Shown piece by piece: positions 38,352-42,598 of a stretch of 64,000 bases of DNA. The position numbers and the translations under genes are program-made. Where the stretch lies: NCBI GenBank assembly GCA_029257805.1, contig JARIAR010000023.1, positions 1 through 64,000 on the forward strand, written 5' to 3'. Below the pieces are notes generated by a model that was given only the letters and a program-made list of their open reading frames with translations, was not told the DNA's origin and made no database searches. Within the stretch, counting starts at the first letter, position 1. Every line of letters begins with the position of its first letter. The DNA is from Blautia sp. GTDB lineage: Bacteria; Bacillota; Clostridia; Lachnospirales; Lachnospiraceae.

Positions 38352-40226
38352 ATGGCACGAAGAGAACAGGAAATTTTTACAGATAAGGGAACTCCATTTC
38401 CGCAGGGGGCAAATCCGATAGACAAGGGGTATAACTTTGCTGTAGAAGTACCGGAAGGAGGGAGTGCAGAACTTTTGCTTTATAGAAAAGGAGAAAAGCA
38501 ACCCCAAAAGGAAATCTCTTTTCCGGAAGAAAATAAAGTAGGAAATGTTCTTTCAATAAGAGTCAGAGGCCTGTCTCCGGGAACGCATGAATATAATTAT
38601 CGAATTAACGGAGTGGTGTGTCAGGATCCCTATGCTTATAGTATTCAGGGAAGAACACATTTCGGAGAACCTATGGATGAAGATGTCCATAAAATACGTT
38701 GCGGGCTTCTTCCAGATACAGAATATAGCTGGGAAGGTGATAAGAGTCTGCAAATTCCTTATGAGGATATGATTCTTTATAAATTACATGTGCGGGGATA
38801 TACAAAGCTTATGTCCAATATTGGAAAAAAGAAAGGGACTTTTTCAGGACTTGTGGAAATGATTCCGTATTGGAAGAAATTGGGAATTAATGCAGTGGAA
38901 TTAATGCCGGCATATGAATTTCAGGAAGTAGTTTCCAAAAGCCGGGAAGAAGCGTACATGACTCAAAAAAGAGATGAGGATCGTATTAATTACTGGGGAT
39001 ATACAACTGGATATTATTTTGCCCCCAAAAGGGCATACTGTGCCGGGACAGATGTCCATAAAGAATTTCGCGATTTTATAAAAGCACTTCATAAAGCAGG
39101 GATAGAGTGTATCATGGAATTTTGTTTTAATGGTGAAACAAACCCTCTTCTTGCATTGCGGGCATTGCAGTTCTGGAAAATATTTTATCATGTAGATGGC
39201 TTTCATATCCAGGGAAGTGGAATAATCCAGGAACTTGTTTTAAAGGATGGCATACTTTCCGGAACGAAGATCATGATGCCGGGTTATGATTTTGCTTCTC
39301 TATATCATGGAAAACAACCAGCCCAAAGGGTTTTTGCAGAATATAATCAGTCTTTTCTGGAAGATATGAGACGTTTTTTAAAGAGTGACGAAGGAATGAA
39401 CCAACGGGCTGTATGGCATGTACGGCACAATGGAAATTATAATGGCGTTGTGAATTTTATCACATGTCATGATGGATTTACGTTAAATGATCTGGTCAGT
39501 TATAATTATAAACACAATGAATCCAACGGAGAAGATAATGAAGATGGAAGCAGTTATAACTATTCCTGGAATTGTGGGGTAGAAGGACATTCCAGAAAAT
39601 TATCAATTCGCCAGATGCGGGAGCGTCAAATGCGAAATGCGTTTTTGATGATGCTTTTAAGTCAGGGAGTTCCCATGATTTATGGAGGGGATGAATTTGC
39701 AAATTCTCAGGAAGGAAACAATAATGCATGGTGTCAGGATAACCCGGTAGGGTGGACAGAATGGAAAGGCCTGAAGCGGAACGAAGCTCTTTTCCGTTTT
39801 GTAAAAGAAGCCATTGCATTTCGGAAAGAACATCCTGTTTTGCATGCTCCAAAGGAGTTAAAAGGGACAGATTATCTTGCAAAAGGATATCCGGATATTT
39901 CTTTTCACGGAGAACGTGCCTGGTATGTAAGCTATGAAAATACAAGCCGTTTATTTGGAGTAATGTATTTTGATGCTTATGAAAAAAGGGACAAAGAAAC
40001 GGAAGAAAATAAATTTATCTATGTAGGATATAATTTTCACTGGGAAAATCGGAAGCTGGCACTTCCCAATCTTCCTGAAGGGTATCATTGGACTAAAGTA
40101 GCGGATACAGGAAATATGGTAGGGGAAAGCTGCTTTGTGGAAGATGGGAAAGAGTATAAAAAAACTATAGAGGCAGATCCAAGAACAATAGTGATTCTTA
40201 TTGGCAGACAGGAGGGAAAGGAATGA
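38352..40226 (+). CDS. GlgX/isoamylase-like GH13 protein, likely catalytically inactive
   Basis: CBM48-like N-terminus, NYWGYTTGYYFAPKRAY, CHDGFTLNDLVSYNYKHNESNGEDNEDG, GVPMIYGGDEFANSQEGNNNAWCQDN; catalytic motifs degenerate (see finding). Confidence 0.88.
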   Translation: MARREQEIFTDKGTPFPQGANPIDKGYNFAVEVPEGGSAELLLYRKGEKQPQKEISFPEENKVGNVLSIRVRGLSPGTHEYNYRINGVVCQDPYAYSIQGRTHFGEPMDEDVHKIRCGLLPDTEYSWEGDKSLQIPYEDMILYKLHVRGYTKLMSNIGKKKGTFSGLVEMIPYWKKLGINAVELMPAYEFQEVVSKSREEAYMTQKRDEDRINYWGYTTGYYFAPKRAYCAGTDVHKEFRDFIKALHKAGIECIMEFCFNGETNPLLALRALQFWKIFYHVDGFHIQGSGIIQELVLKDGILSGTKIMMPGYDFASLYHGKQPAQRVFAEYNQSFLEDMRRFLKSDEGMNQRAVWHVRHNGNYNGVVNFITCHDGFTLNDLVSYNYKHNESNGEDNEDGSSYNYSWNCGVEGHSRKLSIRQMRERQMRNAFLMMLLSQGVPMIYGGDEFANSQEGNNNAWCQDNPVGWTEWKGLKRNEALFRFVKEAIAFRKEHPVLHAPKELKGTDYLAKGYPDISFHGERAWYVSYENTSRLFGVMYFDAYEKRDKETEENKFIYVGYNFHWENRKLALPNLPEGYHWTKVADTGNMVGESCFVEDGKEYKKTIEADPRTIVILIGRQEGKE

Positions 40227-40786
40227 AAGCCTGGCTTCACTTTAAAACAATTACGAAACATAAATGGATGGTTATGAAATATTGTTTCCGAATTGGCTTA
40301 TATAAGCAGGGGTTATTGCATGACTTATCTAAGTATTCCCCTGCGGAATTTCTTGTAGGATGTAAATATTATCAGGGGGACAGAAGTCCTAACAATGCAG
40401 AAAGAGAGGCGACAGGAGTATCTACCTCATGGCTGCACCATAAGGGAAGGAACCGTCATCATTTCGAACACTGGGTGGATTATTCTCTTGATGGGGAACA
40501 TGTGATCATGGGTGCACAGATGCCCAGGCGCTACGTAGCGGAAATGGTAATGGATCGGATCAGTGCCTGCAGAACATATATGGGAGATGCGTATACACAA
40601 GAGCAGCCGTTGGCATATTACCTTAAAGGAAAAGAGCAACTTTGGTTTATCCACCCTCAGACAAAACGGGAACTGGAAGGACTTTTACGCATTTTAAAGG
40701 ATCATGGGGAAGATACGGTTATCTGGTATATTCGAAATGTTTATCTGAAAAAGGGAAAAACATATGGAAAAAATAAATCTATATGA
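40223..40786 (+). CDS. DUF5662-family protein (HD-like motifs)
   Basis: GLLHDLSKYSPAEF, WLHHKGRNRHHFEHWVDY; ATGA overlap with upstream gene. Confidence 0.75.
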   Translation: MKAWLHFKTITKHKWMVMKYCFRIGLYKQGLLHDLSKYSPAEFLVGCKYYQGDRSPNNAEREATGVSTSWLHHKGRNRHHFEHWVDYSLDGEHVIMGAQMPRRYVAEMVMDRISACRTYMGDAYTQEQPLAYYLKGKEQLWFIHPQTKRELEGLLRILKDHGEDTVIWYIRNVYLKKGKTYGKNKSI

Positions 40787-40874: not shown

Positions 40875-41990
40875 ATGAAAAAATACGATTATTTAATTGT
40901 TGGTGCAGGTCTTTTTGGTGCAGTGTTTGCACATGAAGCAACCCGATGCGGCAAAACCTGCCTTGTAATTGACAAAAGAGAGCACATTGGAGGAAATATT
41001 TATACAGAAGAAGTAGAGGGAATTCAGGTACATCGTTACGGTGCTCATATTTTCCACACTTCAAGAAAACATGTATGGGATTATGTGAATCAATTTACAG
41101 AATTTAATCATTTTATAAATTCTCCTATTGCTGTATACAAGGATGAACTTTATAATCTGCCTTTTAATATGAATACATTTCATCAGTTGTGGGGCATAAA
41201 AACACCTGCAGAAGCACAGGCGAAAATTCAGGAGCAGATTGCAAGAATGCACATTACGCATCCTCAGAATCTTGAAGAACAGGCTCTTGCACTTGTTGGT
41301 CAGGATGTTTATGAAAAACTGGTAGATGGATATACCAGAAAGCAGTGGGGAAGAGAATGCAAGGAGCTTCCGGCATTTATTATCAAACGTCTTCCATTGC
41401 GTTACACATACGATAATAATTATTTCAAAGATCCCTACCAGGGAATTCCAAAAGGCGGATATACACGCATTATTAAGAAACTGCTGGAAGGGGTTCAGGT
41501 ATGCCTGAATACGGATTTCTTTGATAATAGAGAGGAATTAACAGCACAGGCAGAAAAAGTACTTTTTACAGGTATGATCGATCAATATTATGATTATTGT
41601 TACGGCGAACTGGAATATCGCTCATTGCGTTTTGAAACAGAGACGTTGGATATGGCAAACTATCAGGGAAATGCAGTTGTAAATTATACAGATTATGAGG
41701 TACCGTATACAAGAATTATAGAACATAAACATTTCGATTTTGGTACACAGCCTAAAACAGTTATTACAAAAGAATATCCGGCAGAGTGGAAAAGAGGCGA
41801 AGAACCGTATTATCCGATTAATGATCCGGCTAATAATGAACTGTTTGATAAATATGAGCGCCGTGCATTAGAAGAGAAGAATGTGATTTTTGGCGGACGT
41901 CTTGGTATGTATCGATATATGGATATGGATCAGGTAATTGAAGAAGCGCTTTCTCTTGCTGAAACAGAGCTTACCTATGAAGAGCCATGA
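40875..41990 (+). CDS. glf: UDP-galactopyranose mutase
   Basis: YLIVGAGLFGAVFAHEA FAD motif, GGNIYTEEVEGIQVHRYGAHIFHTS, FTGMIDQYYDY. Confidence 0.96.
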   Translation: MKKYDYLIVGAGLFGAVFAHEATRCGKTCLVIDKREHIGGNIYTEEVEGIQVHRYGAHIFHTSRKHVWDYVNQFTEFNHFINSPIAVYKDELYNLPFNMNTFHQLWGIKTPAEAQAKIQEQIARMHITHPQNLEEQALALVGQDVYEKLVDGYTRKQWGRECKELPAFIIKRLPLRYTYDNNYFKDPYQGIPKGGYTRIIKKLLEGVQVCLNTDFFDNREELTAQAEKVLFTGMIDQYYDYCYGELEYRSLRFETETLDMANYQGNAVVNYTDYEVPYTRIIEHKHFDFGTQPKTVITKEYPAEWKRGEEPYYPINDPANNELFDKYERRALEEKNVIFGGRLGMYRYMDMDQVIEEALSLAETELTYEEP

Positions 41991-42004
41991 CAGGAGGAGT
42001 GCAG

Positions 42005-42598
42005 ATGGATACACCTACGATTGCAGAATACTATAAAGAGCACGATCCTCTAAAAAGGAAGGATTTGTTGGAAAAATCTATTTCTCTGGGAGAGGATTTA
42101 GAAAATAATGAAATCCGCAGGCGGCTTTGGGAAATCCGTTATGAAAACAAAGCAGAGTCAGGAACAGATGCCCGTGCAGATGGTTTTCTGGCATTGTGGA
42201 TGATTCTGGAATTTAATCGAAATGCAGGCGGAAAGTTATTTGGGGCAAAAGGTGCCCGTAAAGATGTGAAAAAACAACTTGAAAAATTAAGATTTCATGA
42301 ATTTTTAAACGGGGATGAAAGGCATCAGGAACTTTTGTATCGGGAATGCTGTCATCTTGTGAAAATGTATATGGAACTTTGTGAATCTGATAAATCTTAT
42401 ACAAGTATACTTTGCGGGATTATGAGTATGAACGCAGAGAAAGCAAAAGCAAAGCTCCAGAAAGATATTCATGAAACAGCAGTGCTGCTTCCGCCAGTTC
42501 TTGGTATGGAAAAAGAGTTGGAAATCCTTACAAAAGCAGCAAGAGAAATGTATGAACTGCATTTTCCGGGAGAGGGTGGATTGGCTCTTTCCGAATGA
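42005..42598 (+). CDS. Uncharacterised protein (possibly DUF6553-like) linked to glf
   Basis: ORF with GGAGG RBS before ATG 42005, helical composition; no confident motif. Confidence 0.6.
   Translation: MDTPTIAEYYKEHDPLKRKDLLEKSISLGEDLENNEIRRRLWEIRYENKAESGTDARADGFLALWMILEFNRNAGGKLFGAKGARKDVKKQLEKLRFHEFLNGDERHQELLYRECCHLVKMYMELCESDKSYTSILCGIMSMNAEKAKAKLQKDIHETAVLLPPVLGMEKELEILTKAAREMYELHFPGEGGLALSE

Follow-up and report, generated by a model that had tools for sequence, protein, structure and literature searches.

The closest described relatives of the protein considered here are GlgX, TreX and plant isoamylase 1 (ISA1), together with plant ISA2, a dead isoamylase that works in ISA1 complexes (PMC12510319) and evolves faster than its active relatives (PMC12510319). 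In maize ISA1, the residues R504, N561, W578 and N628 make up a "border lobe" (PMC12510319), of which W578 touches the glucan at secondary binding site 2 (SBS2; PMC12510319), a site that ISA2 does not have (PMC12510319). Border-lobe mutants of the maize enzyme show no detectable catalysis, and glucan output and form are nevertheless still altered (PMC12510319). In bacteria, a survey of gut commensals counts two glgX genes in Blautia obeum (PMC10395257); with its BLAST threshold of 20% identity over 50% of the length, the family described below would be counted as GlgX. No description of this family was found in the open papers searched, subscription papers lying outside the search.

The window analysed, a stretch of 64,000 nucleotides from a Blautia sp. 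genome (Lachnospiraceae), carries a member of this family with the following features, all of which lie on the plus strand.

38352..40226, +, GlgX/isoamylase-family pseudoenzyme, 624 aa (open reading frame, translation, TIGR02100, AlphaFold2 model, Foldseek)
38406..38612, +, N-terminal CBM48-like β-sandwich, aa 19-87 (Pfam CBM_48 at 17.3 bits, short of the 22.4 cut-off; AlphaFold2 strands)
39117..39137, +, former motif I, E256-E262, EFCFNGE replacing DVVFNHT (alignment)
39129..39194, +, site of the domain-B deletion, aa 260-281, between strands 3 and 4 (22 residues vs 65-68)
39192..39212, +, former motif II, V281-Q287, VDGFHIQ, nucleophile Asp missing (0/111 in the family vs 74/74 in active GlgX)
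39267..39290, +, former motif III, K306-D313, KIMMPGYD, with Pro where the acid/base Glu was (alignment)
39510..39587, +, conserved β7 loop, K387-G412, KHNESNGEDNEDGSSYNYSWNCGVEG (N389 in 111/111, W406 in 106/111; spacing)
39687..39764, +, conserved β8 loop, G446-W471, GDEFANSQEGNNNAWCQDNPVGWTEW (N456 and W471 each in 111/111)
40223..40786, +, DUF5662 protein, its start overlapping the pseudoenzyme stop by 4 bases (PF18907, 128.4 bits)

The reading frame contains no internal stops and is preceded by a Shine-Dalgarno-like AAAGGAG 5' of its ATG, and its stop overlaps the start of the next gene in the sequence ATGA. The closest profile is that of GlgX (TIGR02100), which is matched at 347 bits and thus below the curated equivalog cut-off of 640.9, a value that several full-length GlgX of Lachnospiraceae also just miss (619-635 bits), and Pfam recognises the amylase domain as fragments only. 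When the protein is aligned to a reference set of 74 full-length GlgX, all of which have the Asp nucleophile and the Glu acid/base, the nucleophile falls into a gap, the acid/base is Pro, the motif-I His is Gly and the motif-II Arg is His, while the His and Asp of motif IV are still present. Motif II accordingly reads VDGFHIQ where active GlgX has VDGFRFD, and motif III reads KIMMPGYD where it has KLIAEAWD. Strands 3 and 4 are separated by 22 residues as compared to 65-68 in active GlgX, which indicates that the loss in domain B is real. The original prediction, made from the letters of the window, had given the exact frame with its 624 open codons, the three altered motif strings and the loss of most of domain B, all of which are borne out; its description of the CHDGF motif as intact is right for the 624-aa protein but does not extend to the family, across which the motif is eroding (its His survives in 31/111 members and its Asp in 49/111).

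The catalytic losses are not local to this Blautia. The family set comprises 111 collected members, whose rows are not fully independent since a few named records may duplicate other genomes in it. No member has the nucleophile, and the acid/base Glu is found in 16 of them, none of which has the nucleophile, as against 74/74 for either residue in active GlgX; the deletion of approximately 44 domain-B residues is common to 111/111 (21-22 left vs 65-68). Of the observations named in advance as telling against the prediction, two were looked for by sequence. The first, homologues with intact catalytic residues, is not seen, the full catalytic set occurring in 0/111 relatives. The second, an Asp/Glu pair at shifted positions, was considered and rejected: the motif-I Asp position is Glu in 89/111, and no alternative acid is newly conserved in the pocket region across the family alignment, which leaves no sign of such a pair. 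As judged from this alignment, the pseudoenzyme is catalytically incompetent as a GH13 retaining enzyme.

An orthologue is present in 35 of 36 genus relatives, one as a contig-end fragment and the complete ones at 50-69% identity. In a sample of 299 Lachnospiraceae genomes, approximately one per genus, a profile of the short form matches 232 at E ≤ 1e-100, nearly always in single copy, and the 624-aa protein alone, used as the query at 1e-20, matches 243; named relatives, e.g. Anaerocolumna, Velocimicrobium porci and uncultured Roseburia and Dorea, are Lachnospiraceae, and it is from these names that the sampled family is taken to be Lachnospiraceae. The pseudoenzyme was not found outside this family of bacteria among the 246 genomes of a Clostridia-wide sample, in which the seven strong matches (699-857 bits) are all from Lachnospiraceae and three further hits (358-377 bits) are reading frames of 676-752 aa that match only from profile position 271. 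In a quick tree, a single branch with a support of 100 and a length of 0.48 parts 43 pseudoenzymes from 29 active GlgX, placing the catalytic losses at one ancient origin. The dN/dS ratio is 0.05-0.1 in the closest, unsaturated pairs, most of the remaining pairs being saturated at synonymous sites, and at least 40 positions are fully invariant across 36 divergent members. In the matched pair of G004 and G005, ω is 0.057 for the pseudoenzyme and 0.022 for active GlgX, so that the former is constrained, yet freer than the latter. The view that the gene is selected for a non-hydrolytic role rather than decaying is thus supported by purifying selection, the single ancient origin and retention in 232/299 genera.

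An AlphaFold2 model based on 36 family members (pLDDT 87.6, pTM 0.90) preserves the core barrel strands and has a single helix in the segment from strand 3 to strand 4, and the predicted structure retains the overall GlgX/ISA1 fold. Its best solved match in Foldseek is rice ISA1 (9j60_A, TM 0.84), followed by Chlamydomonas and Arabidopsis ISA1, Streptomyces GlgX and Sulfolobus TreX, with TM values of ~0.82-0.84 for GlgX 7u3d and 0.78 for rice ISA2. Within this fold, mean conservation drops from 0.77 in active GlgX to 0.39 in the pseudoenzyme family for β4-β6, its least conserved part, and from 0.79 to 0.51 for β3-β4, whereas it is nearly held in the β7 loop (0.80 vs 0.75) and the β8 loop (0.78 vs 0.74) and is higher in the C-domain (0.42 vs 0.51). 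Across the aligned families, constraint has left the barrel's catalytic half and now lies on the β7/β8 loops. These loops contain N389, W406 and N456, which correspond to N561, W578 and N628 of the maize ISA1 border lobe by sequence spacing (-17/0/+50 relative to the NYSWNCG Trp, which in Arabidopsis ISA1 gives N, W, N), not by superposed coordinates; the equivalence of R340 to R504 is weaker because it holds only to within one residue. The equivalents N389, W406, N456 and R340 are kept in 111, 106, 111 and 109 of 111 members, and they are conserved in active GlgX as well and may be structural, so that their retention supports glucan binding without proving it.

Computation establishes the losses, their single origin and spread, the retained fold, the action of purifying selection and a relocation of constraint, and the protein is best read as a non-catalytic, glucan-binding GlgX paralogue (GH13_11, isoamylase type) that is kept by selection, a reading to which we would give a probability of roughly 55%. 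In this model, a duplicate of GlgX would have shed the nucleophile, the acid/base and most of domain B early in the Lachnospiraceae and would then have been retained by selection in most of them. A dead copy kept in nearly every lineage probably serves some other purpose, such as holding on to stored sugar chains: the cytosolic pseudoenzyme may bind branched α-glucan (glycogen) via its retained border-lobe surface and, once bound, may affect the structure of the glycogen, or how glycogen enzymes reach it or are placed, with no bond being cleaved. The principle would be that of plant ISA2, except that an active GlgX partner would be unnecessary. The constraint pattern predicts that the glucan is bound at the border lobe and not in the pocket; the glucan sensing, binding or scaffold role of the original prediction is only indirectly supported, through the retained border-lobe residues.

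An alternative model keeps the partner, in that the pseudoenzyme would tune the cell's own active GlgX through hetero-oligomerisation, on the pattern of ISA2, which acts in ISA1 complexes. Consistent with that, both genes occur in 24 of the 36 genus relatives, the GlgX there being full-length and bearing every catalytic residue, and the predicted fold also matches ISA2 chains (TM 0.78). However, full-length GlgX is absent by TIGR02100 from 15 of 20 pseudoenzyme genomes, among them the single-contig G001, G245, G330, G341 and G251, a proportion that is not a family-wide rate since the 20 were picked partly for showing one match in prior searches, and it was not found in the genome of this Blautia sp. 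either. A sole role as a GlgX subunit is thereby excluded in those species, an obligate GlgX partnership as the only role was rejected, and the partner model as a whole appears unlikely. Regulation by c-di-GMP, as in Streptomyces GlgX, was likewise considered and rejected, the ExR(X)6R motif of that system being missing from the pseudoenzyme.

Just as unlikely is that the old pocket has acquired another catalytic activity, with a glucan or some different ligand. This would agree with position 256 being E/D in 92% of the family and 285 being H in 73/111, and with the invariant N213, W215 and D282 near the barrel mouth. Position 256, however, corresponds to the former motif-I Asp, and D282 is the structural Asp of VDGF; moreover, β4-β6 is where the family is least conserved, and a new acid pair is fixed nowhere in it.

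The gene neighbourhood suggests a further model, in which the pseudoenzyme mainly serves as a protein-binding scaffold for the DUF5662 (or TraX) protein encoded downstream. Across loci, the neighbours are exoA, DUF1292, DUF5662, TraX, uvrD, gltX and ABC-F, with no glycogen gene beside the pseudoenzyme in any genus or family locus examined. The order exoA-pseudoenzyme-DUF5662 is common in the genus, where DUF5662 lies downstream in 18/20 loci and, in this Blautia sp., overlaps by 4 bases, and among 39 loci sampled independently across the family, DUF5662 is close by in 18 and TraX in 9. Against this, DUF5662 occurs in 16 of 20 genomes that carry the pseudoenzyme and in 14 of 20 that lack it, no difference, for which reason a link through co-occurrence was dropped, and in several genomes its gene sits elsewhere or is absent. 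The scaffold model is thus rather improbable; no paper on DUF5662 was found among the open literature searched. Two uncharacterised families, DUF6553 in the genus and DUF5721 in other genera, also recur downstream of the pseudoenzyme gene (41987-42598, plus strand, in the window, and loci L108, L114, L119 and L130). Finally, recent decay into a pseudogene still open by chance, which the lost catalytic residues and a protein evolution 2-3 times faster than that of active GlgX in matched pairs might suggest, was rejected and has next to no chance of being correct in view of intact frames in ~230 genera, the low dN/dS, the invariant positions and the one old origin.

For the glucan-binding reading, the presumed ligand is nearly always made: GlgA was detected in 289/299 of the sampled Lachnospiraceae genomes, and this near-universality makes co-occurrence uninformative on a link to glycogen. 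Some genomes, e.g. G102 and G308 (both 95% complete), match the pseudoenzyme profile, yet no GlgA was detected in them. In the Blautia sp. genome itself GlgA is present, alongside a normal GlgB and further GH13 enzymes.

Beyond the window, the same genome encodes another GlgB-like protein, of 716 aa (G000:C35:37259-39406, minus strand; L079:4260-6407), which is likewise a pseudoenzyme and in which AEEST has become AQEDG, changing the acid/base Glu to Gln, and SHDEV has become GSRDV, with the HD of motif IV lost and the strand-8 segment deleted. The Glu-to-Gln change and the lost motif-IV HD are present in all 28 genus orthologues of this GlgB paralogue examined, that of the genome itself included. 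In other Lachnospiraceae genera most long GlgB paralogues are intact, with two more apparent losses: L259 (G086) and L267 (G142) have RLNGI or RLCSL at the nucleophile position and appear to be separate losses, suggesting that catalytic loss was repeated. Dead glycogen enzymes have thus arisen more than once in Lachnospiraceae.

A single-copy gene in about three-quarters of genera in a dominant family of gut bacteria is thus GlgX-like and yet, by its sequence, no debranching enzyme, and it is the copy held, with no real GlgX, by the 15 tested genomes noted above. The annotation "debranching enzyme" should be avoided for this family; being GlgX-like by similarity and apparently dead, it may cause debranching capacity to be over-predicted in these bacteria. 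It would also add to ISA2 another dead isoamylase that evolved independently, and one found in organisms that are easier than plants for deletion and biochemistry, where the function of a non-catalytic isoamylase could be addressed. A wider proposal, which we regard as possible but doubtful, is that non-catalytic shadow enzymes take part in running the glycogen metabolism of Lachnospiraceae: a dead GlgX present throughout the family, which would bind glycogen and either shape how it is branched or direct enzymes to it, together with a lineage-specific dead GlgB. This would be a bacterial counterpart of the non-catalytic function of ISA in plants.

With GlgX, TreX and plant ISA1 (GH13_11; PDB 2wsk, 7u39-7u3d, 2vnc and 9j60), the pseudoenzyme shares the CBM48-like N domain, the barrel and the C-terminal β domain, and their β7 (KHN..NGE..DG..NYSWNCG.EG) and β8 (GDEF..GNNN..CQD) sequences are nearly unchanged in it; it differs from them in having no nucleophile or motif-I His, in the ~44 missing domain-B residues and, mostly, in the missing acid/base. 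Plant ISA2 (PDB 9j6x_C and 9xvi_C) is, like the pseudoenzyme, an ancient, lineage-wide, fast-evolving and dead isoamylase paralogue (PMC12510319), whereas the pseudoenzyme is bacterial and evidently of separate origin. Its profile and phmmer matches are far stronger to ISA1/GlgX than to ISA2 (284 bits to ISA1 vs 115 to ISA2), the tree covering the pseudoenzymes and active GlgX. Furthermore, the additional N-terminal β-sandwich of ISA2 is absent from the 624-aa model, which starts at the CBM48-like domain, the SBS2/border-lobe sequence that ISA2 lost is kept, and the pseudoenzyme persists without an active partner. By its behaviour it may therefore be regarded as an analogue of ISA2 that differs from it in its defining domain make-up, with ISA2 as the nearest precedent.
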